Assembly: GCA_947378965.1 (NCBI GenBank)
Contig: CANCMG010000005.1
Span: forward strand, 1 to 64,000
DNA from: Alcaligenaceae bacterium
GTDB taxonomy: Bacteria > Pseudomonadota > Gammaproteobacteria > Burkholderiales > Burkholderiaceae_B
Direction: 5' to 3'
DNA: 64,000 nt
Shown: piece after piece, positions 106-19,282 of the stretch
How positions within the stretch are numbered: the stretch's first letter is position 1
How the letters are laid out: each line of letters opens with the position of its first letter
Translations under genes and position numbers: made by a program
Notes under the pieces: generated by a model
What the model was told of the DNA's origin: nothing
Database searches by the model: none
The model's input: the letters and a program-made list of their open reading frames with translations, nothing else

Positions 106-1572
106 TCACGCAGGTTCCAGACGAATGTTGGTGGGTGAAGTGTTGCGCAGAGCGAGCTGTCGTGCAGCATGCTCACCCGCTCTCAATCCCGTAATTCCCG
201 CTTTCATTAGTCCGCCCGTATAGCCGGCGCGGGGTCCGCCTTCCAGGCCTCCGGTACAAGAGCCCGCCGCATAGCATCCTGCGATGGGCTGCCCCGCGGT
301 ATCCAACACACGCGAGTCTTTATCAATGCGAATTCCGCCCATGGTGTAGGTGATGCCAGCGACAATGGGCATAGCATAGAAGGGGGCTTGCATGATCGGC
401 CAAGGGATGAATTTGCCAGAACTGCGCGGCGGCTGTAACGATTCGGTTTGTTTACGCTTAAGAGCTTCATTGAACTGCAAGACCTCTGCAACGAGTTCTT
501 GAGCAGGCAAGCCGCATTCACTGGCAAGTGCTTCAAGTGTGTCGGCTTGATAGATCGTCGCACCAGCTCTTTGGATAAAAGGGTTTGCGGAAAGTGTGCG
601 CAGGGTTCCTGGACCTTCCCAGATAGCGTGATCGAAGATTGCAAACGCTGAGGACGGGTTGGGTAGCTTGGCCAATTGATTGGCAATAAATACGCCACCT
701 AGCCCCTCGTCTGCAAAGCGCCTTCCTGCAGGATTAACGACGATGCCTGAACGGGCCAATTCATCGGCCCAAGGATAGGGCCATAAATTATCGTTATGTA
801 GTGCATCGCGAGACAGTACATGCCCATAGAATTGATCAAGCTCAGTAACGGCTGCGCCAACGTGCTGCGCCATCCGTAGGCCGTCACCCATCCCGGTTTT
901 TGCATTGCGTTGACATAGCTGCTCTGGTTGCGATGTGATGTGTTTCTTTAACTCAGACATGCTTGCTTGAAAACCGCCATCAGCAATGACGACTGCCGTT
1001 GCCTGAACCTGAAAGACAGTGTCAGGCGAAAGCACGCCCCTTAGACCTGTGCATCGCTGGCCATCCATGGTCAGTGATTCAGTCTGATGTCCGCGCAGGA
1101 TTTGACCACCAAGTTGCGTGAGTCGTTGCTCAAGCGTTCGAAGCATGACGTCACCAGCACGACCGCTCCAGTTACGACCAATTTGTGGCAGTGAAGGCGG
1201 TGACAGCGTGAAGGTATGCCATGGTTCTGGGCCAGACCGCATGAAGCGTATGCCTTGTTGTTCAAGCCAACGCACGAGGCGCAAGGCGTCTTGCGCAACG
1301 GCTTGCGAGAGGTCTTGCTGCGCGGTGTTGTCGGTAACGGCTTGGATGCGCGAGGCAATGACCTGCGCTGAATCCTCGATGCTACTCAATGCAAGATGAA
1401 AAATTCCGCCAGTGAGCCTTGAGTTACATAGGTACTGTTGTTCAATATTTTTTTCAAACACCAGTACGCGCAGACCCAACTCAGTGGCTCGTAACGCGCT
1501 TGCCAACCCAGCGAGCCCAGCGCCAATGATGGCAAGGTCACAGGTATAGCGACGGATGGGTTCGTCGGTCAT
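106..1572 (-). CDS. TcuA-like FAD-dependent dehydrogenase (flavoprotein 1)
   Basis: This is a 488-residue flavoprotein of the fumarate reductase/succinate dehydrogenase flavoprotein superfamily, closest in layout to tricarballylate dehydrogenase TcuA and 3-ketosteroid dehydrogenase-like proteins. The N-terminal dinucleotide-binding motif GAGLAG is at residues 17-22. The substrate-domain segment RSGIVVNPAGRRFADEGLGG and the C-terminal FAD-contact segment GGLEGGPRAGYTGGL (about 441-455) are typical of the family. There is no signal peptide, so it should act in the cytoplasm, oxidising or reducing a carbon-carbon bond in an organic acid or cyclic ketone; the substrate is unknown. The ATG lies 2 bases after the stop of the small membrane gene at 1575-1805, so translation is probably coupled. 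It is a clear paralogue of the genes at 4783 and 7212. No Fe-S/heme partner (TcuB) is present, so the electron acceptor is unknown. Confidence 0.85.
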   Translation of the reverse strand: MTDEPIRRYTCDLAIIGAGLAGLASALRATELGLRVLVFEKNIEQQYLCNSRLTGGIFHLALSSIEDSAQVIASRIQAVTDNTAQQDLSQAVAQDALRLVRWLEQQGIRFMRSGPEPWHTFTLSPPSLPQIGRNWSGRAGDVMLRTLEQRLTQLGGQILRGHQTESLTMDGQRCTGLRGVLSPDTVFQVQATAVVIADGGFQASMSELKKHITSQPEQLCQRNAKTGMGDGLRMAQHVGAAVTELDQFYGHVLSRDALHNDNLWPYPWADELARSGIVVNPAGRRFADEGLGGVFIANQLAKLPNPSSAFAIFDHAIWEGPGTLRTLSANPFIQRAGATIYQADTLEALASECGLPAQELVAEVLQFNEALKRKQTESLQPPRSSGKFIPWPIMQAPFYAMPIVAGITYTMGGIRIDKDSRVLDTAGQPIAGCYAAGSCTGGLEGGPRAGYTGGLMKAGITGLRAGEHAARQLALRNTSPTNIRLEPA

Positions 1573-1574
1573 TG

Positions 1575-1805
1575 TTATCGCGGCAAGAGCGTTTCTGCGA
1601 CGAGGTCAACGACTTCAATCATTAGGCGCATTAGGGCGTAGGCCAATAGTGCCGCTGGGATGGCAACGTATGCCCAGGTGCTTACGTCGAGCTTGTAGGC
1701 CAACCAGAAGCCCCCCAGCAATGTAAAAAGCGCACCTAGCCACGGTATGGCGTAGCCATAGCGAGTGACGAAACGAATAGCACAAAAACGATCAGGATTT
1801 TTCAC
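1575..1805 (-). CDS. Small two-helix membrane protein coupled to flavoprotein 1
   Basis: A 76-residue protein with two predicted membrane segments (about residues 18-37 and 43-62) and a charged C-terminal tail ending ETLLPR. It aligns without gaps over its full length to the 76-residue product of 8653-8883, with about 30 identical positions by hand count; the tail EV(V/I)DL(V/I)AETLLPR is nearly invariant. Both copies sit immediately upstream of a TcuA-like flavoprotein. I do not recognise a named family. The context suggests a membrane docking or quinone-linking subunit for the flavoprotein, but this is inference. It lacks the histidine pairs expected of a diheme anchor. Confidence 0.75.
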   Translation of the reverse strand: MKNPDRFCAIRFVTRYGYAIPWLGALFTLLGGFWLAYKLDVSTWAYVAIPAALLAYALMRLMIEVVDLVAETLLPR

Positions 1806-3102: not shown

Positions 3103-3738
3103 ATGACTAAAAATGATCAACTGGGGCTGTTGCTTGTGACGATGGAACCCCCTGCGTCCTTAGAAGAAGAATTTGCAGATTGGTACGACACAGAGCATGT
3201 TCCAGAGCGAGCACGAATCCCAGGATTTATGAATGCTCTTCGGTTTGTTTGTGTCTCTGGATGGCCCAGGTTCGTGGCTGTTTATGATCTTCAGGCGCTT
3301 GAGGTGCTCGATAGTCCAGGTTATCGAGCCGTGTCGGGCGATCTGTTCTCTCCGTGGTCTAAGCGAGTATTGGGTAGAGTTCGTGGGCAATATCGTGCTG
3401 CGGCTGTGCAGATATTTCCTGGTCAAGCGGTCACGAGTCGCTTTGTCTCGATGACGCTCATGCGTTATCGAGGGATCACCGCGGAACAAGAAGAGGGGTT
3501 TGTGCGTGACGTTCAGCAAAGCGTGGCTGGGTTGAAGCAAGACCATGTGTTAGCGCTTCGAATCTTTCGCTTTGACAATGGCGGCTCGCTCGATCATTTG
3601 GTCATGATCGAATGGTCTGTGGGTGCCAATATGCTCGAGGCCGTGTCGCCGCCAAGCGCTTTTGCCAAGCATCTTGATTTGAGTAATGTGTATGTGCAGT
3701 ACTGGACGCGAGGTCACTTGCCCGGCGTGTATCACTAA
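3103..3738 (+). CDS. EthD-like dimeric alpha/beta-barrel protein 1
   Basis: A 211-residue protein; the ATG at 3103 is chosen because AAGGAG lies just upstream and because earlier starts run inside the Bug gene. The N-terminal half carries WYDTEHVPERARIPGF, the hallmark of EthD/dimeric alpha-beta-barrel (ferredoxin-like) proteins, and the C-terminal half looks like a second, more diverged barrel repeat. Proteins of this fold act as small cyclases, isomerases, monooxygenases or accessory proteins in degradation pathways; no catalytic assignment is possible here. It is related in size and motif to the convergent gene at 3958-4608. Its last codons form part of the first 40-bp tandem repeat unit. 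Confidence 0.65.
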   Translation: MTKNDQLGLLLVTMEPPASLEEEFADWYDTEHVPERARIPGFMNALRFVCVSGWPRFVAVYDLQALEVLDSPGYRAVSGDLFSPWSKRVLGRVRGQYRAAAVQIFPGQAVTSRFVSMTLMRYRGITAEQEEGFVRDVQQSVAGLKQDHVLALRIFRFDNGGSLDHLVMIEWSVGANMLEAVSPPSAFAKHLDLSNVYVQYWTRGHLPGVYH

Positions 3739-3957: not shown

Positions 3958-4608
3958 CTAGTCTAAATTGGCAATTCGGTGATAAACCCGATACTCACCG
4001 CGAAACCAAGATTCTGTTGCGAGGCGATCGCGCCAGGGCGTACGGCGTGCCTCGTCGCGTTCAGGCGAGTTCAGTGCCGAGATATTTGATAGGTAGTGCA
4101 GTGCTAAGTGAGTGTATCCGCTTGGATGAGGGGTGAGCAGCTTAAACCTGCGACAGGCTAGCCAATAGGGCGAGCGCAAAAGAATCTCTAAATGCTCTTG
4201 GTCGTACCAGCGATTAAATTCTTGAGTTCGATGATCAGGAACGCCAAAGAAAACCGGGTAACTAAGTGCGCACTGTGAAGCGAGTTCAGTGGGGTCACTA
4301 ATTTCGGGACGATATTGGGCACCGATTGGCTCGGCGATAAAGCGTTCGAGCTGTTTGGCTGGCGCTTCACCCAGAGTGCGCACCTTGAGCGCTTTGGCTA
4401 AATCGACAGAGTCGTTGAGTTCGATAATGCTGCTCAGACTATTGCACGACGCACTTGCATAGCAGGTCATCGGCGAAGCTCCAATCACTTCGCGCAGGAC
4501 CGCAAGATGCTGTTTTGAATACCACACCTCAAAAGCCACACCTTTCTGATCTGCAGAGGTCGCCGAATCAAAAAGAATCAGATTGTTTTGAGTTGTATTT
4601 GAAGTCAT
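3958..4608 (-). CDS. EthD-like dimeric alpha/beta-barrel protein 2
   Basis: A 216-residue protein with two related halves: WYSKQHLAVLREVIGASP near residue 29 and WYDQEHLEILLRSPYWLACR near residue 133, each matching the EthD-type W-Y-x-x-x-H signature. The tandem-barrel layout matches the convergent gene at 3103-3738, which makes them likely diverged paralogues. It lies directly upstream of and divergent from flavoprotein 2, suggesting a shared substrate. Function unknown; a role as an isomerase, lyase or carrier in breakdown of the flavoprotein's product is possible but unproven. Confidence 0.65.
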   Translation of the reverse strand: MTSNTTQNNLILFDSATSADQKGVAFEVWYSKQHLAVLREVIGASPMTCYASASCNSLSSIIELNDSVDLAKALKVRTLGEAPAKQLERFIAEPIGAQYRPEISDPTELASQCALSYPVFFGVPDHRTQEFNRWYDQEHLEILLRSPYWLACRRFKLLTPHPSGYTHLALHYLSNISALNSPERDEARRTPWRDRLATESWFRGEYRVYHRIANLD

Positions 4609-4782
4609 GGCTTGGTCTTGTTAATGTTGTGATATTTTGAACGATCTTTAAACGAGGCCTACACACTCGATGCTCTAGCTGAGCATGCAAGAACAAGAAA
4701 AAAGTGAAACAGGTATATTGATGATCAAGCTCAAACCGACATGGGTTGTCGGCATTCACCCGACGCTAACATAGCAGAAATC

Positions 4783-6198
4783 ATGACGAATGACACTCAA
4801 AAAAAAATAGATTTAATAGTTGTCGGTGCTGGAATTGCTGGCTTAGTCTGTGCGATCCGCGCGTTAGAGCTCGGGCAAGCAGTGACATTACTCGAGGCCC
4901 AACACGAACAAAAATATGCCTGCGCAACTCGTATGTCGGGTGGTGCATTTCACGTCATATTCAATAACGTTACCTTGCCACCTGAAGAGTTGTTTCAGGC
5001 GCTTAAGTTGGGTACAAAGGGTCACGCCGACTTATCATTGTGTCGCGCTATCGCGGATCATGCCTCACGCTCGGTTTGCTGGCTGCGTGATTTAGGAGTT
5101 AAGTTTGATAGGCTCGAGCCAGATCGGGGCTGGACCGACACGGTGTTAGCGCCGCTCGGTTATCAGGACAATACTGAACTCGTATGGGAGGGGTTGGGCT
5201 CAGATGTGATGATGCAAACACTTGAGTCTCAATTTGTGGCAAAGGGTGGTCGTTTTCTGCGCGGACACCGCGCTCGCCGTCTACTGAGTGAGGCTGCCCA
5301 TTGCACTGGGGTAGTGGTTGAAGTTGATGGAGCCGAAATCTCGTTTCATTCGCGCGCAGTTGTACTGGCCGACGGAAGTTTTCATGGCAATCGGCGTTTG
5401 GTGCAAGAGCACATTACAAGCGACCCAGACCAGTTGCTCAAACGAGGGCCCACCACTGGGCTGGGTGATGGCATTGAAATGGCTCAAGCAATGGGGGCCC
5501 ACTTATTGGGGATGGAGTATTTTTATGGCCATCTGCTAAGTTTGGATGCCTTGCATAATCAATCGTTGGTTCTGTTTCCTTTCATTGACTTTCTGGCAAG
5601 TGCGGGGATGCTCGTGTCGCCGCGTGGCCTGCGGTTTGCTGATGAGGGTCTTGGTGGGCGCTATTTGACGAATAGACTTGCTCACACGGAGACCGGAGTG
5701 GCTTTCGCCATTTTTGATCACACCATTTGGGAATGTGAAGGACGCAGTTTTCATTCTGCGCCGAATCCTAATCTTGTTGAGAACGGCGGGACACTTTACG
5801 TCGCGGATAGCCTCGAAGAGCTGGCGGACGTGGCGAATATCGATCGGAACGCCCTGTGTGACAGCGTGGCTCAATACAATGCTGCACTAGACGCGGGTTC
5901 GCTGCCGCGGCTTGACCCTCCTCGAACCTCTGCAGGTACTAAAGCCCAGCCAATTCAGAAATCTCCTTTCTATGCTGTGCCGACCTGTGCTGCGATTTCA
6001 CACGCTTTTGGGGGCGTGATGATTGATGATCGGGCACGCGTTCTGCGTCAGGACGGCTCACCAATCGAGGGACTATACGCTGCCGGCGCCTCATGCGGCG
6101 GCATAGATGGCGGCCCCGAGGCTGCGTACGTGGGTGGCTTGATTATTGGAGCAGTTTTTGGCCTGCTTGCGGCAGAAACCTTTGCCCAACAGCACTAA
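4783..6198 (+). CDS. TcuA-like FAD-dependent dehydrogenase (flavoprotein 2)
   Basis: A 471-residue paralogue of the proteins at 106 and 7212. The start MTNDTQKK is chosen by alignment to flavoprotein 1 (MTDEPIRR); an in-frame ATG at 4741 would add 14 residues, and neither has a convincing Shine-Dalgarno. GAGIAG is near residues 14-19, and the segment GLRFADEGLGG and the C-terminal GGIDGGPEAAYVGGL are conserved. The active-site-side segment differs from the other two (TRMSGGAFHV here, SRLTGGxFHL there), which suggests a different substrate. Unlike the other two copies it has no small membrane protein next to it. It converges on Bug protein 2 with a 19-base gap. Confidence 0.85.
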   Translation: MTNDTQKKIDLIVVGAGIAGLVCAIRALELGQAVTLLEAQHEQKYACATRMSGGAFHVIFNNVTLPPEELFQALKLGTKGHADLSLCRAIADHASRSVCWLRDLGVKFDRLEPDRGWTDTVLAPLGYQDNTELVWEGLGSDVMMQTLESQFVAKGGRFLRGHRARRLLSEAAHCTGVVVEVDGAEISFHSRAVVLADGSFHGNRRLVQEHITSDPDQLLKRGPTTGLGDGIEMAQAMGAHLLGMEYFYGHLLSLDALHNQSLVLFPFIDFLASAGMLVSPRGLRFADEGLGGRYLTNRLAHTETGVAFAIFDHTIWECEGRSFHSAPNPNLVENGGTLYVADSLEELADVANIDRNALCDSVAQYNAALDAGSLPRLDPPRTSAGTKAQPIQKSPFYAVPTCAAISHAFGGVMIDDRARVLRQDGSPIEGLYAAGASCGGIDGGPEAAYVGGLIIGAVFGLLAAETFAQQH

Positions 6199-7211: not shown

Positions 7212-8645
7212 CTAAAGGGTAGTCGCTTTCAGTATGTGCTCTGCTGCGCGTAATCCAGTCACACCGCTGATGGATAAGCCTCCGACATAGGTCGAAGCAG
7301 GGCCGCCTTCAATGCCTCCAGTCGCTCCACCCACAGCATACACCCCAGAAATCGGTGAACCTGAAGTGTGCAACGCACAAGAATCCTGATTGATGCGAAC
7401 ACCACCCATCGTATAAGTGATGCCCGGAACCACTGGAATCGCAAAGTATGGTGCACGGACGATGGGCAGGGCATCATACTTGTGGATACTGCGGCGAGGA
7501 ACCATCTGGGCGAGCGTCTGATTTTTGAGTGCGGTGTTGTAAGCCTCTATCTGACCAGAAAAAGCCGCTGCAGGCACGTGACAGAGTTGCGCTAATTCGG
7601 GCAAACTCGCTGCCTGGTAGATGGTTGCACCTGCGGAAGCAAGCGTTGGATTGGGCGGCAGAGCACGTTGTCTGCCTGGTCCTTCCCAAGTCGATTGATC
7701 AAACACGACAAAGGCCTCGGCTGGATCCGTCTTTTTTGCGAGAGTATTTGCGATCGCAACGCCACCAAGACCTTCATCAACAAAACGTAGCCCGTCGGCT
7801 CCAATCATCAGCGAAACTCGTGCAATTTCGTCAAGGTAGGGGTATGGCCACAGTCGATCATTGGTCAGTGCGTCGCGTGATAAAAGGTGTCCATAAAAAG
7901 CAGACAAGTCTGTAATCTCTGCTGAAATCTCACGCGCCATATTCAGGCCATCACCGATGCTAGTCTGTGAGTTTCTTTGAACAAGACGGGTGGGCTCTTT
8001 TGTAATATGGCATCCGATCATTTCTTTGTTTGCTTGAAAGCCACCGTCGGCAATAACGACGGCACGGGATGCAAAGCTAAAATGAGAACCATCGGCACGG
8101 ACTCCGCGAATTCCGGTCACACGTCCAGACTCTAGCGAAATATGTTGGGCTCGATAGCCACGATGCAAGGTTCCGCCGCTTTCCTCCAGTTTTTGTAGCA
8201 GCGTACGCAGAGCAACATCACCGCCTCGGCCTTCCCATTTTCTACCTAATTGCGGTAGCGGTGGCGGGGCCAAAATAGAGCTGCGCCAGTCAGCACCAGC
8301 ACCTCTTAAAAATCTTATGCCAAGCGATTCTAGCCAACGCACAACTCGCTTAGCATCTTGTACGACGGTACGCACTAAGATTGGATCGGCACTGTTGGCA
8401 GACGAAGCTTCAATGGCTTGAACAATAGAGTCTTCGTTGCCAAATACATCGTGATATGCAAGATGAAAAACTCCGCCCGTCAAACGTGAGTTACAGACAT
8501 AGCGGTCTTCGATAGATTTCTCTAAAACCGTCACGCGTAAGCCACCCATCGCGCAACGTGTTGCAGCGATTAATCCAGCGATGCCTGCTCCGACAACTAC
8601 AACATCCGCTTCATTCGAAGGGTCTAAGTCCATTGATGCTTTCAC
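7212..8645 (-). CDS. TcuA-like FAD-dependent dehydrogenase (flavoprotein 3)
   Basis: A 477-residue paralogue of flavoprotein 1. The GTG at 8645 is chosen because a GAGGTAA Shine-Dalgarno lies 7 bases upstream and itself contains the TAA stop of the small membrane gene, a classic coupling arrangement; an ATG at 8633 is the alternative. It keeps GAGIAG near the N-terminus, SRLTGGVFHLA, GLRFVDEGLGG and the C-terminal GGIEGGPASTYVGGL. No export signal. Together with the upstream small membrane protein it repeats the arrangement seen at 106-1805. Confidence 0.85.
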   Translation of the reverse strand: MKASMDLDPSNEADVVVVGAGIAGLIAATRCAMGGLRVTVLEKSIEDRYVCNSRLTGGVFHLAYHDVFGNEDSIVQAIEASSANSADPILVRTVVQDAKRVVRWLESLGIRFLRGAGADWRSSILAPPPLPQLGRKWEGRGGDVALRTLLQKLEESGGTLHRGYRAQHISLESGRVTGIRGVRADGSHFSFASRAVVIADGGFQANKEMIGCHITKEPTRLVQRNSQTSIGDGLNMAREISAEITDLSAFYGHLLSRDALTNDRLWPYPYLDEIARVSLMIGADGLRFVDEGLGGVAIANTLAKKTDPAEAFVVFDQSTWEGPGRQRALPPNPTLASAGATIYQAASLPELAQLCHVPAAAFSGQIEAYNTALKNQTLAQMVPRRSIHKYDALPIVRAPYFAIPVVPGITYTMGGVRINQDSCALHTSGSPISGVYAVGGATGGIEGGPASTYVGGLSISGVTGLRAAEHILKATTL

Positions 8646-8652
8646 GCTTAAA

Positions 8653-8883
8653 TTACCTCGGTAGTAATGTTTCAGCAATGAGATCGATGACTTCCACTGC
8701 AATACGTAGTATCGCAAACGTCAATGTGGCGAGAATGAGCCCGACGATTAACCAGACGAGATTTGAATAAAAAATAAACAAGCCGACTGAGGCAAATAAG
8801 ACTAAAAAAACACCGCACCAGGGTACTAAGTAACCCCAGCGGATCATCAGATGAATCGCGAAAAATCGTTTAGCGTAATCCAT
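8653..8883 (-). CDS. Small two-helix membrane protein coupled to flavoprotein 3
   Basis: A 76-residue two-helix membrane protein, same length as and gaplessly alignable with the product of 1575-1805. Shared positions include RF-AI near the N-terminus, GY--PW-G at the start of helix 1, and the C-terminal AETLLPR. Helices are about residues 18-39 and 42-62. Its stop codon forms part of the Shine-Dalgarno of flavoprotein 3. No family name recognised; an anchor or electron-transfer role is inferred only from the conserved coupling. Confidence 0.75.
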   Translation of the reverse strand: MDYAKRFFAIHLMIRWGYLVPWCGVFLVLFASVGLFIFYSNLVWLIVGLILATLTFAILRIAVEVIDLIAETLLPR

Positions 8884-10606: not shown

Positions 10607-12484
10607 TTATATCGAAAGGGACAATTTAACTGCGTCGTAAATCCCGGCGGTGAGCATGTTGGGTTCGTACGCGTCAGACAACCAGGCGTCTACACGCTGC
10701 GCGGGGTCTGGCGCAGACCACTGCGCATCGTCAGCAGACAGATCAGGAGTCTTTTCAAGTGCGCCGACAATCCACGTTTGCGACGCATGGATCTCATCAG
10801 GCAGCTGGCCAATTATGAGTGTCACGCCTAACTGGTCAAAAAGCTTTCGCGTGGCTTCGCGGTAACCAGGGTGACCATCAATCGCGATCCCGCGGCCCGG
10901 ACTATACAGAGTCACCGTACAGCCTTGCTGAGCAAGGGTGGCAGCCATTTCTGCGGTAACGAGATCCAGCCCGGCCAGATTGATTGTTTGGTTGTGTCGC
11001 GTATGAACGCTAGGCAGTGCGTCATAAGTACTTTGGGCTGCGCCAAATTTTTCGGAGGCTTCAGTATGCGGAACGTACCGGCGAACAACCCAGGTCAAAT
11101 CGCTAGCAAGAATTTTCGCGGTGTCGTGTTCAAACGTGACGCCGGCCTGCCGAGCTCTGTGCACGAGTGCTGCGGTGGCTTCAGAAAACTCGCTTAGACC
11201 TGGTACCTGAGCTCTCGAGTCTTGCATTCCACCTAGCGCATTGTTCGGCGCGTACAGGACAACGTGATGTCCTTTGCTGGAGGCGATCCATGCCGCCGTC
11301 AGTGCTGACCAACTCGAGCCGACAATACTCACTGTCTTTGGCTTGGCGGTACGAGAAAAGTTAAACGTTGCCTCGCGTCCAATTGCCGGGTTGACTGGGC
11401 AAATACTTTCGGGGCGACCCGAGCGACCTAAACAAATATTACAGCTCGTGCAGGCAACAATTTGTTCAACTTGTTGCTTTGCAATCTTATTGGGTAGTTC
11501 AGCATCAGCGATCGAGGCCCTGCCAAAAAGTGGAATATCGACAAGCCCTTTGGCGATAGCCATTTCAGCAATCTCTGCGCGCTTGATACGCCCCACACCC
11601 AGCACTGGGATCGAACAATGTTGTTTGACTTGCCCGGCAAGTTCAAGCCATTGTCCCTCTTGGTCACCGGTGATCATCGACAGGCGGTTGAAAGACTCAT
11701 AGACCCCGACTGAGATTGAGATGGCGTCTATGCCGGCCTGTTCGAGCATTCTGACAACGTCAAGCGTTTCTGGTAGATCGAGCCCATCTTTCACGAACTC
11801 TTTCGCGCTGATACGCACAATCAACGCAAAGGTTGGTGAGGTAACTTGGCGTATGCGGCGAATGATATTCAACAAAAAACGCATACGATTTTGGAGCGAG
11901 CCGCCGTACTGATCCGTACGTTTGTTTGTATAGTTTGAAATAAACTCAGCGATGAGATAACCATGAGCGCCGTGAAGCTCTGCACCATCAAAGCCAGCTT
12001 GTTCTAAGCGCTTAGCCGCATCGGCAAAATCTTGTTCAAGCGCGTCGATCGCGCCAAGGTCAAGCTCAACGGGTATTTCGCGGTTCAACGGGCAAGGAAC
12101 GGGCGAAGGGGCAACAAGCGGCATCCCAGTTGTCGCTGTTTTGGTTTGTCGACCAGCATGGCTAAGTTGACCAATGATCTTGGCACCGGCTGTTTTGACG
12201 GCAGCGGCCAGAGAGGTCAGACCCGGCAGCATCTGGTCATTGTGTGCCATGACCATACGGGGCATGACCCGACCTGACGGATGAATGCCAAGATTTTCTG
12301 TGATGATGAGTGAGAAGCCACCTCGCGCGCGTGCGGCCAGATAGTCTTCAAGTGCCTTTGAAACCGAGCCATCAACATTTGCAAAGTTGGTGGTCATGGG
12401 TGCCATCGCAAAGCGCGTTGGGATGGTAAGCGACCCAATGGTTAAGGGCGAAAATAAGTGCGGAAAAGTATCTTTTCCAGGCAT
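10607..12484 (-). CDS. Old Yellow Enzyme/2,4-dienoyl-CoA reductase-type flavoprotein
   Basis: A 625-residue NADH:flavin oxidoreductase of the FadH/trimethylamine dehydrogenase type. Residues 1-335 form the FMN TIM barrel, with HGAHGY at 171-176 carrying the expected tyrosine. Four cysteines at 345, 348, 351 and 362 should bind a 4Fe-4S cluster, but the first three are spaced C-x2-C-x2-C rather than the usual C-x2-C-x3-C. The C-terminal dinucleotide-binding domain is degenerate: the usual GGGPAG-like motif is replaced by VGSSWSA at 388-394. It may therefore not bind FAD in the usual way. The family reduces alpha,beta-unsaturated ketones or dienoyl-CoAs. Precedes the IclR pair in the same leftward run. 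Confidence 0.85.
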   Translation of the reverse strand: MPGKDTFPHLFSPLTIGSLTIPTRFAMAPMTTNFANVDGSVSKALEDYLAARARGGFSLIITENLGIHPSGRVMPRMVMAHNDQMLPGLTSLAAAVKTAGAKIIGQLSHAGRQTKTATTGMPLVAPSPVPCPLNREIPVELDLGAIDALEQDFADAAKRLEQAGFDGAELHGAHGYLIAEFISNYTNKRTDQYGGSLQNRMRFLLNIIRRIRQVTSPTFALIVRISAKEFVKDGLDLPETLDVVRMLEQAGIDAISISVGVYESFNRLSMITGDQEGQWLELAGQVKQHCSIPVLGVGRIKRAEIAEMAIAKGLVDIPLFGRASIADAELPNKIAKQQVEQIVACTSCNICLGRSGRPESICPVNPAIGREATFNFSRTAKPKTVSIVGSSWSALTAAWIASSKGHHVVLYAPNNALGGMQDSRAQVPGLSEFSEATAALVHRARQAGVTFEHDTAKILASDLTWVVRRYVPHTEASEKFGAAQSTYDALPSVHTRHNQTINLAGLDLVTAEMAATLAQQGCTVTLYSPGRGIAIDGHPGYREATRKLFDQLGVTLIIGQLPDEIHASQTWIVGALEKTPDLSADDAQWSAPDPAQRVDAWLSDAYEPNMLTAGIYDAVKLSLSI

Positions 12485-12579
12485 GAATATACTTCCTGTG
12501 GGGGCTGTTTAACAGCCCGCTGTCCCTGACAGAGCATGACAGCAGGCCGGCTAAACAGAACGTTTGAGCGAAAGACTAT
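12485..12579 (-). promoter_or_regulatory. Intercistronic hairpin upstream of the OYE-type gene
   Basis: This gap contains the inverted repeat GGGCTGTT (12502-12509) / AACAGCCC (12511-12518), flanked by a second GCTGTC...GACAGC pair. On the minus strand it lies between the LivK-type gene and the Shine-Dalgarno (CAGGAAG) of the OYE-type gene. There is no U-run, so it is more likely an mRNA stability or processing structure than a terminator. Confidence 0.35.
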
Positions 12580-13785
12580 TTATTTTTTGACTAAAGAGCA
12601 CTTGCTTTCAGACAGAGGCAGGAAGGCCTCCTTGGCGGGGATCGTTGAGACCACGTTGTAGTAGTCCCAAGGTCCTTTACTTTCTGCTGGTGTCTTGACC
12701 TTGAAGAGGTACATGTCATGCATCAGTTGGCCATCTTCGCGGATTGAGGCATTTTTAGCGAAGAAGTCATTCACTGGCATCGACCTCATTTTTGCCATGA
12801 CGGGGTCTGTGGCACTAGTGCCTGCGGCCTGAACGGCTTTTAAGTAGTGATTCACAGCAGAGTACGTGCCGGCCTGAACCATCGTGGGCATGCGTTTGTG
12901 TTTTTCGTAAAAGCGCTTTGACCACGCGCGCGTTTCATCATTCATATCCCAGTAAAACGCTTCGGTCAGTTGCATCCCTTGTGCGTATTCAAGTCCTAAG
13001 CTGTGTACATCCGAGATGAACGAAAGCAAACCAACGATATTTTGATTTTTTGTCGCCCCAAAATCTCGTGCAGCCTTCAGGGCGTTAATCGCATCACTAC
13101 CGGCGTTTGCCAAGCCAATCACTTTTGCCTTTGAACCTTGCGCTTGCAGGATAAAAGAGCTGAAGTCTGGGCTGTTAAACGGATGCTTCACAGAGCCAAG
13201 CACTTTTCCGCCACCAGCGAGAACAACATTCGTTGTGTCTTTTTCGAGCGCTTGACCAAAAGCATAGTCGACTGTAATGAAGAACCAAGTGTCCCCCCCT
13301 TGTTTGAGCACGGCATTGCCCGTACCTGTTGCCAACGCGTAGGTGTTGTAGACCCAATGAACGGTGCGATCATTGCAGTCTTCACCGGTGATCTGACTTG
13401 AGGCTGAGCCAGTGTTGATCACAACTTTATTTTTTTCTTTTCCAAGCTTCATGACAGCCAGACCGACGTTGCTTGCGGCGAGGTCGGTAATCATGTCAAC
13501 CTTATTCACATCAAACCATTCGCGTGCTTTGGCTGCGCTGATATCGGTTTTGTTCTGGGCGTCAGCAAAAAGTATCTCAATCGGCACACCTAGTACTTTT
13601 CCACCAAAGTCTTCTGCCGCCATTCTGGCTGCGATGACCGACCCCATACCGCCGATGTCAGAATACGTACCTGACTGATCGTTCAGTACGCCGATCCGAA
13701 CAGCACCGCTTGGAACTTGTGCCATGGCGGTACCATACGAACCTGCGAGTACCGCTAGAGCTGAGAGAATAGTTTTGGTTTTCAT
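12580..13785 (-). CDS. ABC-type branched-chain amino acid (LivK-like) binding protein
   Basis: A 401-residue periplasmic type-1 binding protein with a clean signal peptide (cleavage after AMA near residue 22) and the opening VRIGVLNDQSGTYSDIGG, typical of the LivK/Peripla_BP_6 group that in Burkholderiales often binds aromatic or short-chain acids rather than amino acids. It has no LivHMGF permease or ATPase genes beside it in the window, so it is an orphan receptor that must use a transporter encoded elsewhere. It lies 40 bases after the crotonase gene in the leftward run. Confidence 0.88.
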   Translation of the reverse strand: MKTKTILSALAVLAGSYGTAMAQVPSGAVRIGVLNDQSGTYSDIGGMGSVIAARMAAEDFGGKVLGVPIEILFADAQNKTDISAAKAREWFDVNKVDMITDLAASNVGLAVMKLGKEKNKVVINTGSASSQITGEDCNDRTVHWVYNTYALATGTGNAVLKQGGDTWFFITVDYAFGQALEKDTTNVVLAGGGKVLGSVKHPFNSPDFSSFILQAQGSKAKVIGLANAGSDAINALKAARDFGATKNQNIVGLLSFISDVHSLGLEYAQGMQLTEAFYWDMNDETRAWSKRFYEKHKRMPTMVQAGTYSAVNHYLKAVQAAGTSATDPVMAKMRSMPVNDFFAKNASIREDGQLMHDMYLFKVKTPAESKGPWDYYNVVSTIPAKEAFLPLSESKCSLVKK

Positions 13786-13825
13786 GTTTCCTCTTGATTA
13801 GTTTTATGTACTGATTGACGTGAAC

Positions 13826-14611
13826 TTACTTACCCTGCCATTGAGGAGCTCTTTTTTCAGAAAAAGCGCGCGGCCCCTCTATTGCATCTGCGCTTGCATA
13901 CACTTTTTTATACAACTCTTTGGCATACTCAAAGCCAGCGTCGCAACCTAGCGTCATGGCTTTTAAGATACTGTCTTTGCCAGCCATCACAGAAAGCGGT
14001 GCGTTATCACGGATTCTTGTGGCAAGCGCCAGTGCACGGTCGCGTACCGCCTGTGCATCGGGTTCGACGTAATTGACGAAGCCGAGTTGGTACAGTCGTT
14101 CAATCGAAACCATCTCGCCTGTCAATGTCATTTCCATCAGAATGGGTTGTGGAAGCATCCAGGCAAGAGGAACACCCCAAGGCGATCCTCGGCCAATCTT
14201 TGCTTCTGTGATGCCGCCGCGTGTGCCGGCCATGCCAATTCTGAGGTCTGAGTTCAGACTTAACACCATGCCGCCTGCGGCAAAATGCCCCGTCATTGCG
14301 GCAATGATCGGCTTTTTCACTGAGCGCATGCGTTCGTAAAAGGGGTCTTTCAGTACGTCAAGGATGTCACAGCCTCGGGTGCGCTTGATCTCGGCGGCCT
14401 CTTTCAGATCCATGCCAGCGCAAAAGGTGCCGCATTCGGTGGCCGTCAGAATCACGACGCGCACGCTTGGGTCAGCATCCACCTCGGCCCAAAGATCATA
14501 AAGTTGCTCACCAGCAGCGATTGATAGTGCATTGCGCTGAGCGGGACGATTTAAGGTGATCGTGGCAATTTGTTGATCAACGCTATAGAGAACTTCTGGG
14601 GCTGTGGTCAT
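13826..14611 (-). CDS. Enoyl-CoA hydratase/isomerase (crotonase) family protein
   Basis: A 261-residue crotonase; the ATG at 14611 is preferred over an in-frame TTG at 14623, neither having a strong Shine-Dalgarno. The oxyanion-hole motifs FCAGMDL and GHFAAGGMV are present. The position of the first catalytic glutamate (GGGCEL in classical hydratases) is GGMVL here, while the second region reads ITEAKIGRGSPWG and keeps a glutamate, the pattern of a common but less characterised crotonase subgroup. Hydration or isomerisation of an unsaturated acyl-CoA is likely; substrate unknown. First gene of the leftward run to 6218, divergent from the acyl-CoA operon starting at 14872. Confidence 0.82.
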   Translation of the reverse strand: MTTAPEVLYSVDQQIATITLNRPAQRNALSIAAGEQLYDLWAEVDADPSVRVVILTATECGTFCAGMDLKEAAEIKRTRGCDILDVLKDPFYERMRSVKKPIIAAMTGHFAAGGMVLSLNSDLRIGMAGTRGGITEAKIGRGSPWGVPLAWMLPQPILMEMTLTGEMVSIERLYQLGFVNYVEPDAQAVRDRALALATRIRDNAPLSVMAGKDSILKAMTLGCDAGFEYAKELYKKVYASADAIEGPRAFSEKRAPQWQGK

Positions 14612-14871
14612 TGGCGTAGTCAAAGGGTTTTGGGACTAAAGTGACGCGTTATCAAATAAATGATATCAGTTTATTTCAGTTTGAGGAATGAAATTTCATT
14701 AAATGGTTGCTATGTAATGTTTAGCCATTGTTTGGGGGCGTGTTCAGACTCACATGCATTATTGTCGAAAGTAATGATTAATTATCCTGAAAGTTGACTG
14801 TTGACTAATAAAAAAAAGCTGACTATATTTCATTCTATAAATACTAATTTCATTAAACGAAAGAGACACTT
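14612..14871. promoter_or_regulatory. Divergent promoter region with 14-bp palindrome
   Basis: This 260-base AT-rich gap separates two divergent catabolic operons. It contains the perfect palindrome AATGAAATTTCATT at 14687-14700, whose half AATGAAATTT recurs in the 1806-2021 promoter region. The palindrome resembles the A/T-rich symmetric sites used by IclR- or TetR-type regulators; which protein binds is inference. Confidence 0.45.
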
Positions 14872-15684
14872 ATGCTTAGCAGTAAGACATTCGCTGGACA
14901 AACTGTTTTCATCACCGGTGCCGGCACGGGGCTTGGAAAACGCTTTGCCACGCGAGCCGCCGAGCTTGGCGCAACGGTGGTGGTGGCGGGACGGCGCGAA
15001 AATCTCTTGCAAGAGACTGCTGAACAAATCAGGCAGGCCGGGGGTAAGGCGCTTGTTTGCGCTCTGGACATCCGCAAAGCCGATGATGTGCAAGCGGCGG
15101 TCGATCGCGTTGTCAGTGAGACTGGCCGTTTAGATGTCATGATCAACAACGCTGCCGGTAATTTTGTGGCTCGGGCTGAAGAAATCTCACCCAACGGCTG
15201 GAATACCGTCATCAATATTGTGTTGAATGGCACGGCAAATTGCACGTTGATTGCTGGGCGACACATGCTTAAGCAGGGGCGCGGCAAAGTATTGAGTATT
15301 TCTGCCGCGTACGCCTGGTACGGTGGGCCCGGTACTGCGCATTCAGCGGCGGCAAAAGCTGGGGTGATTGCGATGTCGCAGACGCTCGCAGTCGAATGGG
15401 GGCCGCGCAACGTACAAGTCAATTGCCTGTGTCCGGGTTTTGTCGACACCGAGCAATCTCGCACGGCACTTTGGCCAACAGCTGACGGTCAAAAACGAAT
15501 TCTGGACTCGATTCCGGCTGGGCGTTTCGGGACGATCGACGAAACTGTTGAGGCGGGTTTATTTATGTGCTCGCCAGCGGCAAACTATATTAACGGCGAG
15601 GTATTGGTCATTGATGGCGGGCAATGGCTGAATAAAGGTGTGTTTGTGTTGCCCGAACCGGGCCAGCGCTATCAGAAGGTTTAA
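14872..15684 (+). CDS. SDR-family 2,4-dienoyl-CoA reductase-like enzyme
   Basis: A 270-residue short-chain dehydrogenase. The cofactor motif TGAGTGLG (about residues 16-23) and NNAAGNF are typical of the peroxisomal/mitochondrial 2,4-dienoyl-CoA reductase (DECR/PECR) branch. The usual YxxxK catalytic pair reads HSAAAK, another hallmark of that branch. It would use NADPH to reduce a 2,4-dienoyl-CoA or trans-2-enoyl-CoA. First gene of a rightward operon (SDR, ligase, acyl-CoA dehydrogenase, crotonase, AtuA pair, thioesterase, MaoC), consistent with breakdown of an unsaturated or branched acid. Confidence 0.85.
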   Translation: MLSSKTFAGQTVFITGAGTGLGKRFATRAAELGATVVVAGRRENLLQETAEQIRQAGGKALVCALDIRKADDVQAAVDRVVSETGRLDVMINNAAGNFVARAEEISPNGWNTVINIVLNGTANCTLIAGRHMLKQGRGKVLSISAAYAWYGGPGTAHSAAAKAGVIAMSQTLAVEWGPRNVQVNCLCPGFVDTEQSRTALWPTADGQKRILDSIPAGRFGTIDETVEAGLFMCSPAANYINGEVLVIDGGQWLNKGVFVLPEPGQRYQKV

Positions 15685-15720
15685 TCAAGAATCGAGTCAT
15701 CAAAAAAATTAGAGACCGCT

Positions 15721-17259
15721 ATGACCGCTGCACTTGATCGCATCGACGCATTATTCGAGCACAACGCTCGTACTCTGCCTGATAAAACGCATTTAATCGA
15801 TTTTTCAGGAAACCATCAAACCTACCTTCAAACATACCAGCGGGCTCAACTTGTTGCACTGGCGTTGCACCAAAGCGGGGTCGCGCGTGGTGACCGAGTG
15901 CTGCTTTTGCTCGGAAACTCCAACGAGCTCGTCGAACTGTATGTGGCGTGCAGTATCGCGGGTGTGATTTGTGTGCCTGTGAACTTGTTGAGTACCACTC
16001 ATGAGCTTACGCGCATCATCGCTGACTGCACGCCTAGCGCGCTCGTGATCCATCACGATTTATTAGACCGTGTTCCTGCTGATCTTCCGCCAGGGCAACT
16101 GAAGCTTCGTATTGTGGTTCAGGGAGTCGTCGCGAACTGGCAGAGCTATGCGCAGTTGGTTGAACAGTTGCCTTGCTCGATGCAGCCCCAATCTAGCGAT
16201 AAGAGTGACGCGGCAGTCATGATCTACAGTTCAGGTACAACTGGAAAACCTAAAGGCATCTTGCTAAGCCAGTATGCCTTGATGGAAAACGCCCGGATGA
16301 CGCTTGCGGTCATGCGTTATCAGCAAGCCGATATCATGTTGGCGCTCTTGCCCTTGTTCAGTTCCTTTGGTTTTAGCTACGATTTTTTGCAAGTCGGCTT
16401 AGCGGGCGCAACGCTTGTGACGGTGCCTAAGTTTGATCCTTTGCAGGTTGCGCGCTTAGTGCCGTTGCATAAGGTGACTTGTTTGGCCGGTGTCCCAACC
16501 ATGTACGCAAGGTTGTTTGATCAGGCCAATTTGGGTAGCACTGATATTTCAAGTTTGCGTTTAATTGATGTCGGTGGTGGGCCCGTCTCGGATAGATTGA
16601 AGCAAGAACTAATAGAGGTACACGGTATCGATGTGGTCGAGAGTTATGGCCTGTCTGAAATCTCGCCTGTAGCAAGCGTGCAAATCCCAAATGTTGCGCA
16701 CCACGCGGGGTCGTGCGGCCCAGCGCTGCCTGGCATCGAAGTTAAGGTGGTTGATGAGCAAGGTCATCAGGTTGCGACCGGCGAAGTGGGTGAATTATTG
16801 TTTCGCTGTGACACCATGATGGTGGGGTATTGGAACCAACCTGAATTGACGGCACAGACCTTGCGAGAGGGTTGGCTGTACTCGGGCGACGTCGGTATCG
16901 TTGATGAGCGAGGCGAAATTCATATCAGAGATCGAATCAAAGATATCATCGTCTCAAGCGGCAATAATGTTTACCCCAAAGAGGTCGAGAACGCCATCCT
17001 TGAACTGCCAGCGGTTCAAAGCGTAGCAGTCATCGGCGTTAAAGATGAAATTCGAGGTGAAAATATTCATGCCTTTGTGGTGTTGCATGGCGGAAAAACT
17101 GCCACTGAGGTTGAGGTCATTGAGCATTGCAAAGTGCTGATTGCGCGCTACAAGGTGCCGCGCGCCGTCACGTTTTTAACTGAATTGCCGTTGACCGCCT
17201 CCGGAAAAATCAAGCGCTTTGAATTACGCGAACTTGCCAAAGCGGCAAGAGCATCTTGA
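15721..17259 (+). CDS. Acyl-CoA synthetase (AMP-forming)
   Basis: A 512-residue member of the ANL superfamily. The phosphate-binding loop SSGTTGKPKG is at 170-179, the adenylate motif ESYGLSE follows, YSGD and RIKDIIVSSGNNVYPKEVE mark the hinge and C-terminal domain, and the catalytic lysine is in LTASGKIKR (Lys496). It activates a carboxylic acid to its CoA thioester in the cytoplasm and so probably performs the entry step of this operon. The chain-length or aromatic preference cannot be read. It lies 36 bases after the SDR gene. Confidence 0.9.
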   Translation: MTAALDRIDALFEHNARTLPDKTHLIDFSGNHQTYLQTYQRAQLVALALHQSGVARGDRVLLLLGNSNELVELYVACSIAGVICVPVNLLSTTHELTRIIADCTPSALVIHHDLLDRVPADLPPGQLKLRIVVQGVVANWQSYAQLVEQLPCSMQPQSSDKSDAAVMIYSSGTTGKPKGILLSQYALMENARMTLAVMRYQQADIMLALLPLFSSFGFSYDFLQVGLAGATLVTVPKFDPLQVARLVPLHKVTCLAGVPTMYARLFDQANLGSTDISSLRLIDVGGGPVSDRLKQELIEVHGIDVVESYGLSEISPVASVQIPNVAHHAGSCGPALPGIEVKVVDEQGHQVATGEVGELLFRCDTMMVGYWNQPELTAQTLREGWLYSGDVGIVDERGEIHIRDRIKDIIVSSGNNVYPKEVENAILELPAVQSVAVIGVKDEIRGENIHAFVVLHGGKTATEVEVIEHCKVLIARYKVPRAVTFLTELPLTASGKIKRFELRELAKAARAS

Positions 17260-17305
17260 CCGCTGCCAGTTCTTGCTGTGCATTAGCTTTTATTTTTACT
17301 GATTC

Positions 17306-17320
17306 TGCCAAACTTTGGCA
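17306..17320. promoter_or_regulatory. 15-bp palindrome upstream of acyl-CoA dehydrogenase
   Basis: TGCCAAACTTTGGCA is a perfect inverted repeat (7-base arms around a central C), 19 bases before the ATG at 17340, in an 80-base gap within an otherwise tightly packed operon. It looks like an operator for a dimeric repressor of the TetR or LacI type, or a hairpin in the mRNA leader. Only one copy was noticed. Confidence 0.4.
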
Positions 17321-17339
17321 TACTCTTTGAGACGCAAAT

Positions 17340-18488
17340 ATGGACACTTATTTTTTAACTGACGATCAAAAAGCGATTCATGACAGTATTCAAAAATTTT
17401 GTTTAGAAAAAATTGCACCATTTTCTAAAAACATTGATGAGACGGATGAGTTTCCGCACGAAATCTTCAAGCAACTTGGTGAACTCGGGTACATGGGGGC
17501 GTCAAGTAGCGCCGACTATGGTGGTGGTGGACTCGATCTGGTCTCGACCTGTTTGATCCTTGAAGAAATCTCTAAAGCCTCAGGAGCCGTTGGCAGTTCA
17601 TACAACGCACATATTGGCTTGGCTTCAACTGTGATGAGCGAGCATGGCTCACTTGCACAAAAAGAAAAGTACCTGCGTGACCTCACTTCAGGCAAAAAGA
17701 TCGGTGCCTTTGGCTTAACCGAGCCCTCGGGTGGCTCGAATGCGCGCGAACCCAAGACTCAGGCCCAATTGCAAGGTGATCACTATCTCATCAACGGCTC
17801 TAAGGCCTTTAATACTAACGGCTGGGTTGCCGATACCTTCGTGATTACAGCGAAAACGCCTAACGGTGTGACGGCTTTTATTCTTGAGCGTGGCATGCCA
17901 GGTTTTGAAATTGGCAAGCCCGACAAAAAAATGGGTGTGCATGGTTCGCCAACCTCGACGCTATATTTTGATAACGTCAAAGTCCCTCTAGAGAACATGA
18001 TTGGCGAAGAGGGGACGGGTTTTAGAAAATTTGCGCGTACTCTGGATAAGGGCCGCGTGAACGTTGCCGCGCTGTCTGTGGGTTTGGCGCAAGCCAGTTA
18101 TGAGGTGGCTGTACAGTACAGTAAAGAGCGAACGCAGTTTGGCAAGCCAATCGGAGCCTTTCAAGGTATCCATTTTCAGATCGCTGAAATGGCCACTGAT
18201 ATTGAGGCGGCCCGTTTGTTGATGCTCAACGCTGCTCGTTTATACGATGCAGGGTTGCCAATCAAAAAGCAAGCAGCGATGGCAAAGTATTTTGCTGCTG
18301 AAGCAAGTTTGCGAGTGTGCGATAAGGCGATTGAAATTCTTGGTGGTTATGGGTATTTACGAGATTTTCCGGTTGAGCGGTTTTATCGAGACGCCAAAAT
18401 GTATCAAATTGGCGAAGGCACCAGTCAAATCCAACGCATCATCATTGCGCGCGAAATCCTTGGTAGCGCCATTGCCAACTTCTCTTGA
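17340..18488 (+). CDS. Acyl-CoA dehydrogenase
   Basis: A 382-residue, normal-length acyl-CoA dehydrogenase. [14 protein letters not shown] matches the first family signature, and the probable catalytic glutamate is Glu359 in [12 protein letters not shown] near the C-terminus, as in short/medium-chain and isovaleryl-type enzymes. FAD-dependent alpha,beta-oxidation of the acyl-CoA made by the upstream ligase is likely, with electrons passed to ETF. The 3' end lies 7 bases before the crotonase ATG. Confidence 0.92.
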
Positions 18489-18495
18489 GAACAAA

Positions 18496-19281
18496 ATGAG
18501 TCAAGACGATTTTCTGTTAGATATCTCTGAACAGATTGCCACCATTACGCTGAATCGCCCTGAAAAAGGGAACCCGATGGGGATTCATTTTTCACAAGGA
18601 TTTAACGCCGTCTTAGATCGTATCGAGGCTGACCCCACGGTGCGTTGTGTCATCGTGACCGGCCAAGGCCGCACCTTCTGCGGCGGTGGTGATTTAAATG
18701 AAATTATGAGCCCAGAGCCGTCAGATTTCGAAGCCGAATACAAGCTTGTGCGTGGCTATAACTTGCTTGCGAAAAGGCTGTATTACTTTGATATGCCGGT
18801 GATTGCGGCTGTCAATGGCCCAGCGGTGGGCGGTGGTGTTGGCATTGCGATGGCATGTGATTTTGCCCTGGCCTCGAGTACCGCACGGTATGACTTGTTT
18901 TTTCAACGGGTCGGCCTGTCGGCTGCAGATGTCGGTGTGCCGTGGCTCTTGACTCGGATTGTGGGGGCCTCAGTCGCGAATTACTACTTATTAACGGCTG
19001 GTTCAATCGATTCTGCGACCGGACTGCGGTTGGGGTTGTTTCCAGAGGTGGTTGAGCCTGAGAAACTGCTCGAGACTGCCCGCGCGGCGGCAAAAAAAAT
19101 CATCGACGCCTCTGAACCCTCAGTGCGTATCTCTAAACTAGCGCTGCGCCATGGCGTTGAAATGGAATTTTCGGCCAACCTTGAGGTTGAGGCGTACATG
19201 CAGAGCTATGCGTTTAGAACAGCCGAGCACAAACAACGCATTGCCGCGTATCGCGATCGTGTGAAAAAAAAGGGTACATGA
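18496..19281 (+). CDS. Crotonase-family protein with atypical active site
   Basis: A 261-residue protein; the ATG at 18496, just after the dehydrogenase stop, is used instead of an extension that overlaps that gene by 240 bases. Crotonase motifs FCGGGDL and NGPAVGGGVG are present. By hand alignment to rat enoyl-CoA hydratase, both catalytic glutamates are missing: the first position is Gly in GGGVGI, and the second region reads YDLFFQRVGLSAADVG, with an aspartate placed roughly as in PaaG-type isomerases. It is therefore more likely an isomerase or another crotonase activity than a classical hydratase. Confidence 0.82.
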   Translation: MSQDDFLLDISEQIATITLNRPEKGNPMGIHFSQGFNAVLDRIEADPTVRCVIVTGQGRTFCGGGDLNEIMSPEPSDFEAEYKLVRGYNLLAKRLYYFDMPVIAAVNGPAVGGGVGIAMACDFALASSTARYDLFFQRVGLSAADVGVPWLLTRIVGASVANYYLLTAGSIDSATGLRLGLFPEVVEPEKLLETARAAAKKIIDASEPSVRISKLALRHGVEMEFSANLEVEAYMQSYAFRTAEHKQRIAAYRDRVKKKGT

Positions 19282-19282
19282 T

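Follow-up and report, generated by a model that had tools for sequence, protein, structure and literature searches.

Membrane-anchored flavoprotein dehydrogenases are an already known kind of enzyme. TcuA-TcuB consists of tricarballylate dehydrogenase and an Fe-S/heme membrane partner. SdhC/SdhD and FrdC/FrdD are small membrane subunits that anchor a flavoprotein complex, with an iron-sulfur subunit in between, and class 2 dihydroorotate dehydrogenase and GlpD are single-protein, membrane-bound flavin:quinone oxidoreductases. The locus described here combines a flavoprotein with a much smaller membrane protein, of which no description was recognised in the literature covered, a coverage that leaves out most subscription papers. 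As far as that search reaches, the new elements are the putative anchor family together with its apparent sharing and fusion.

Gene pairs of the window and identity of the flavoprotein

The window, i.e. the whole 64 kb stretch of DNA that was analysed, lies at the very start of contig 5 in a genome of 4.5 Mb and 189 contigs. On its minus strand lie the genes for a small membrane protein with two hydrophobic segments (copy A, 1575..1805, 76 aa, GTG start, TAA at 1577-1575) and for a soluble FAD_binding_2 flavoprotein (copy A, 106..1572, 488 aa, ATG at 1572; included in clade alignments A4 and A6). The small gene is located 5′, and 2 bases separate its stop codon from the flavoprotein ATG. A 76-residue membrane protein placed 2 bases ahead of a flavoprotein had been proposed in a sequence-only reading of this DNA, and both frames were indeed open as claimed. 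A relative (L003/L046) shares with the copy A small protein its GTG start and the opening residues MKNPDRF. A second pair, likewise on the minus strand, comprises small membrane protein copy B (8653..8883, 76 aa) and flavoprotein copy B (7212..8645, 477 aa from GTG 8645, or alternatively starting at ATG 8633). Aligned without gaps, copies A and B of the small protein match at 39% of their 76 residues and both end with AETLLPR, and the two flavoproteins share 50% identity. A third paralogous flavoprotein gene (4741..6198, plus strand) is without an adjoining small gene.

Two other coding sequences of the window (3106-3738, plus strand; 3958-4608, minus strand) gave no Pfam or NCBIfam match above cut-off, and one weak match to the EthD family (E-value 0.011). 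ORFs resembling them by eye were located between the flavoprotein and small genes in several Acetobacteraceae. Furthermore, positions 10607-20659 contain a catabolic cluster with an old-yellow-enzyme-like reductase, enoyl-CoA hydratase, SDR, AMP-ligase, acyl-CoA dehydrogenase and AtuA-family protein, a gene content that may point to the degradation of terpenoids or branched acyl compounds.

The PF00890 FAD_binding_2 domain was identified in the flavoprotein with 181.2 bits against a gathering score of 20.4, with E-values of 5.2e-53 for copy A and 6e-43 for copy B. Its closest solved relatives by sequence were flavocytochrome c fumarate reductases and urocanate reductase (1d4c, 6t85), and 3-ketosteroid dehydrogenases. 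The best NCBIfam match of copy A was a TcuA model, below its cut-off: scores against TcuA models NF006130 and TIGR02485 were 202.6 bits (cut-off 369) and 101.1 bits (cut-off 372.55), respectively, and the flavoproteins at 4741 and 7212 were likewise under the TcuA cut-offs. A true TcuA (648.6 bits) is encoded on contig 94 of the same genome, directly followed by TcuB (420.6 bits). On the basis of the far-below-cut-off scores and this separate TcuA-TcuB pair, TcuA identity of the flavoprotein was rejected. The earlier description of it as TcuA-like was thereby given up, several fumarate-reductase catalytic residues also being missing. The accompanying claim that the TcuB partner is missing proved correct, as no TcuB match was found on the window contig and the sole above-cut-off TcuB is located elsewhere, beside the true TcuA.

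Scanning of the flavoprotein alignment against named genome contigs returned 193 relatives, and the best 80 of them served as the loci analysed here. A TcuB-like gene was present near the clade flavoproteins in none of these best 80 of 193, as searched by tblastn (1e-6) with a single query, the TcuB-like ORF of L129 named by eye, and without a positive control. Columns of the clade were matched to flavocytochrome c3 (Fcc3) by sequence alignment only, with residue numbers and roles that we take to be Arg402 for catalysis, His504 and Arg544 for substrate binding, and His365. The column of His365 holds His in 74/74 clade members, and that of Arg402 holds Gly in 74/74. Aligned with His504 there is Tyr in 63/74 and His in 2/74 members, and Arg544 is matched by Arg in 8/74. 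Because the Arg402, His504 and Arg544 positions are mostly replaced in the clade, a dicarboxylate appears doubtful as the substrate of the flavoprotein.

The small protein family and its fused form

The small-protein family was defined by a profile made from relatives, and alignment A5 comprises 34 members including copy A. In both copies A and B, two hydrophobic stretches were found by Kyte-Doolittle average, which together with the charge distribution point to two membrane helices. The N-terminal part of the A5 members has Tyr/Phe-Pro near the start, then a basic residue, the first hydrophobic stretch and a short charge-poor turn, and the C-terminal part has the second hydrophobic stretch, a basic residue, and a motif like RSYVELVRVIADMLLPK. 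Near the C-terminus, two acidic columns, one Leu and one Pro are fixed (34/34 each). Arg or Lys is found ahead of the hydrophobic part in 27/34 members and behind it in 29/34. Columns 71, 75, 78 and 82 are charged within an otherwise mostly aliphatic stretch extending the predicted second helix, and this stretch could plausibly be a docking helix.

Neither conserved Cys nor invariant His was found in the A5 alignment, with Cys in at most 3/34 members in any printed column and His in 14/34 in its best column. This rules out a conserved Fe-S centre in practice and makes heme unlikely, so that electron transfer via Fe-S or heme of the small protein is considered unlikely. Pfam and NCBIfam scans of all 34 members returned no family, with isolated matches of E-value 0.0014 or worse in one member each, and sequence search against solved structures gave no match (best E-value 0.21). 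Four annotated plasmid records label the small protein "hypothetical protein".

In the window genome, contig 93 encodes a 610-residue protein composed of the flavoprotein, a linker, and a two-helix domain ending VELIKLVTEFLIPE. In total, 9 of the 32 genomes of the genus contain the full flavoprotein/two-helix fusion frame, the window genome among them, and a tenth (G009) carries the fusion with its fused end lost at a contig end. The fusion of G017 was concluded from a 599-residue frame common to the flavoprotein and small-protein matches. Since the same fusion recurs in nine genomes, assembly error is not likely as its cause. In the six different fusions seen whole, the linker varied from about 12 to 68 residues between the profile limits, and both domains were kept. 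Genome G027 (L204, C17:6500-11000) retains just the two-helix end as a remnant of this gene; a Bug gene similar to the one beside the window-genome fusion lies nearby, and no flavoprotein was found in the 4.5 kb examined around the remnant.

Occurrence and gene linkage across genomes

Among 399 genomes of the order, the clade flavoprotein and the small protein were both found in one and the same set of 15, with limits of E-value ≤1e-100 and ≤0.01, respectively. The 1e-100 limit was set after the scores had been seen, whole clade members scoring above about 560 bits and other paralogues of the window genome about 210 or less. Profile E-values per genome were 1.7e-18 to 1.1e-30 for the separate small proteins, and 1.3e-5 for the fused domain. 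A 16th small-protein match in the order (G281, L027) was dropped as partial (E-value 0.004) and without the motif. The chance probability of the same-15 overlap is about 1e-27, with a true weight much lower, as the 15 genomes represent only 5 genera. Within the genus (32 genomes), a level at which gains and losses are recent, the flavoprotein was present in 10 and the small domain in the same 10, and an eleventh genome, G027, has the remnant only; its weak match, the sole small match in the genus without a flavoprotein match, was set aside as a fused-gene remnant. In draws of 369 genomes from the class and 299 from the phylum, the small protein was found only in the window genome. The small protein is rare and missed by such draws, as named alphaproteobacteria carry it.

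Of the 12 small-protein matches of the first search, found in 9 genomes, L005 and L008 were unrelated ORFs. Two small genes, the second one of G017 (L011/L030) and that of G230 (L022/L036), are located on contigs of 4.7 and 3.2 kb, respectively, without a clade flavoprotein. The idea that every small-protein match adjoins the flavoprotein clade fails when taken literally, many being located elsewhere, and stands in the form that within the 399 order genomes the small protein occurs only where the clade occurs.

A small gene was identified within 35 of the 80 flavoprotein loci (best 80 of 193 relatives). In 18 of these 35, it is directly upstream of the flavoprotein gene, and in 4 directly downstream. 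Nine loci have the small gene downstream with about 500-670 bases between, and in 8 of the 9 spacers there is an apparent dimeric alpha-beta-barrel protein, recognised by eye. A Bug receptor gene separates the flavoprotein from the downstream small gene in two loci, in L123 the small gene is downstream past the end of a second flavoprotein type, and in L053 it is 5.3 kb from the flavoprotein. Hosts of the small-gene loci, as labelled, were betaproteobacteria, Azospirillum, Acetobacteraceae, Novosphingobium and Hyphomicrobiales. Some of the 80 flavoprotein loci come from metagenome bins with Klebsiella pneumoniae, Bordetella parapertussis or Asaia bogorensis in their titles (L051, L070, L083, L085, L086, L108, L110 and others), which look like mislabelled environmental bins. 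In many betaproteobacterial genomes (L031, L033, L034, L035, and part of L151-L177), the small gene has maleate-isomerase-like, PrpD-like and CaiB-like neighbours in its cluster, as well as a second, distant flavoprotein type.

On plasmids, 6 of the 7 loci examined (of 9 found) had the small gene adjoining the flavoprotein gene, these pairs being from Rhizobium gallicum, Azospirillum argentinense, Variovorax paradoxus, two Cupriavidus necator, and Neorhizobium petrolearium. In the plasmid stretch around the flavoprotein of Paraburkholderia sp. PREW-6R, the small gene was not found. Pairwise distances of small proteins and flavoproteins were correlated (r = 0.77, 33 non-redundant pairs, 0/5000 permutations as high), which adds little alone, since linked genes would give such a correlation without contact.

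The remaining 45 of the 80 flavoprotein loci (best 80 of 193) had no small gene within the flank, some flanks being short. Whole-genome search for the small protein covered 35 of those 45 loci, in 32 genomes. In 26 of the 32, the small protein was encoded elsewhere in the genome, in one copy each and in two copies in one genome. Six of these 27 small genes adjoin another clade flavoprotein, many of the others are clustered with maleate-isomerase-like, PrpD-like and second-type flavoprotein genes, and some are without any of these neighbours within 1.5 kb. Because many small genes stand beside other genes, the clade may not be the sole client, and the second, distant flavoprotein type might be another client of the small protein.

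In 6 of the 32 genomes (L107, L112, L115, L116, L117, L125), for which completeness is not stated, no match to the small protein was found. With 45/80 loci lacking a small gene and none found in 6/32 genomes, some clade members seem able to function without such a partner. A scan of the 45 loci for same-strand ORFs (45-150 residues, two hydrophobic stretches, clear of larger ORFs) within 3 kb revealed no replacement; its two candidates, in L092 (a Bug fragment by sequence) and L115, were weak. The third flavoprotein of the window (4741-6198) groups with those of L116, L117 and L125 (Caballeronia, Paraburkholderia) with 95% SH-aLRT, obtained by a quick method and with a long window branch. Near the flavoproteins of L116, L117 and L125, an EtfA-like ORF, in two of them also an EtfB-like ORF, and an acyl-CoA-dehydrogenase-like ORF were recognised by eye.

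In 9 of the 15 order genomes, the clade flavoproteins outnumber the small domains: at least 4 versus 3 in the window genome, and at least 2 to 4 versus 1 in the eight others, the flavoprotein counts being lower bounds, as four candidates per genome were scored. These gene counts suggest that one small protein may be common to several flavoproteins.

Proposed membrane docking, rival readings and known systems

The small protein is probably a dedicated membrane-docking hairpin subunit, by which the flavoprotein would be recruited to the inner membrane and its reduced FAD would deliver electrons to an acceptor there, likely ubiquinone. A minimal membrane anchor, which had been put forward from the sequence alone, has become the leading reading with the adjacency in either gene order, the recurrent fusion, and the matched presence across genomes. 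Anchoring of the flavoprotein by the small protein is well supported by the gene data; physical binding and hairpin topology are our inference, and direct transfer from reduced FAD to quinone is a guess by analogy with known membrane flavoenzymes.

On inspection by eye, the fused protein of the window genome and flavoprotein copies A and B lack an N-terminal signal sequence, and they start near the nucleotide-binding fold. As the fused flavoprotein is without a signal sequence, the N-terminus of its hairpin would be cytosolic, and insertion into the membrane would take place from the cytosolic side. Basic residues on both sides of the hydrophobic part, with few in the turn, fit a hairpin with both ends inside. 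The small protein would accordingly be pictured as a two-helix hairpin with both ends cytosolic, its second helix running into a charged amphipathic C-terminal stretch. As clients we envisage one clade of FAD dehydrogenases in the cytosol, which have fumarate reductase and 3-ketosteroid dehydrogenase among their relatives. Once docked at the inner membrane, the flavoprotein could pass electrons from reduced FAD to an acceptor, most likely ubiquinone, without heme or Fe-S, and directly, because the pair encodes no other redox centre. Where a genome encodes several flavoprotein paralogues, a single small protein may serve more than one of them, and in one lineage it is fused to the flavoprotein through a linker of variable length.

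A bolder form of this proposal, tentative and less likely than not, is that of a respiratory docking hub: a single two-helix protein (about 75 residues) would open the quinone pool to several different soluble flavin dehydrogenases of the same cell, new substrate-specific ones could be added by duplication of the flavoprotein alone, and in one lineage the hub would have been fused to a client.

An unlikely alternative, yet one with some weight, is that the small protein acts as a tether only, holding the flavoprotein near a transporter or a hydrophobic substrate dissolved in the membrane, and that the electron acceptor is soluble (ETF, a second flavoprotein, or oxygen). TctC/Bug-like matches in 51/80 loci (best 80 of 193) would suit such a role, as would the ketosteroid dehydrogenases among the relatives of the flavoprotein and the AtuA and acyl-CoA genes in the window cluster; however, the Bug matches are rarer in loci with the small gene (17/35) than in loci without it (34/45), and the small gene is retained while other neighbours vary. 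A soluble acceptor is also brought to mind by the EtfA-like ORFs in 3 of the 6 small-protein-free genomes (L116, L117, L125), two of which have EtfB-like ORFs as well, but these ETF genes may have the acyl-CoA dehydrogenase as their only partner.

The Bug-type receptors could be interpreted otherwise, with the small protein as a subunit of an uptake system (like the small permease part of TRAP or TTT transporters) that is co-inherited with the flavoprotein in a common catabolic cluster, and several small genes do adjoin Bug genes and not clade flavoproteins. This reading is improbable in the light of the 9 genomes in which the small protein is covalently fused to the flavoprotein and of the matched occurrence across genomes whose other cluster genes differ, and transporter-family matches were isolated and weak, in 1/34 members each. 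Short hydrophobic ORFs arise easily, and two false matches were met in the first search for relatives, so an accidental, hitch-hiking ORF upstream of the flavoprotein was also weighed. Against E-values of 1.7e-18 to 1.1e-30 (fused domain 1.3e-5), the conserved C-terminal motif, the fusion and the matched occurrence, its probability is practically negligible.

If membrane docking is true, the flavoprotein superfamily would have a membrane partner of very small size with neither heme nor iron-sulfur centres, and a function would be given to a protein family so far annotated as hypothetical in the four plasmid records. It would also explain how betaproteobacteria and some alphaproteobacteria couple multiple flavoproteins of catabolic clusters to respiration. 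The natural fusion offers a ready-made protein for testing the anchoring.

In comparison to known systems, the pair resembles TcuA-TcuB in having a FAD_binding_2 flavoprotein gene beside a membrane-protein gene, and differs from it in the 76-residue partner without conserved Cys and in a flavoprotein far under both TcuA cut-offs. Flavocytochrome c3 and the soluble fumarate reductases, with urocanate reductase, are the nearest solved relatives, and the equivalent of His365 is kept in 74/74; in contrast to flavocytochrome c3, the equivalents of Arg402, His504 and Arg544 are mostly changed here, and the window ORF has no cytochrome domain. With SdhC/SdhD and FrdC/FrdD the proposed arrangement has in common a small membrane subunit and a flavoprotein that would be held on the membrane, whereas here there are two hydrophobic segments only, no iron-sulfur subunit, and no conserved heme-ligating His. 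Direct flavin-to-quinone chemistry would be shared with class 2 dihydroorotate dehydrogenase and GlpD, if such transfer holds here. On the basis of their descriptions, these are set apart from the present system, in which the membrane part is a separate, possibly common protein or a hairpin fused to the C-terminus.
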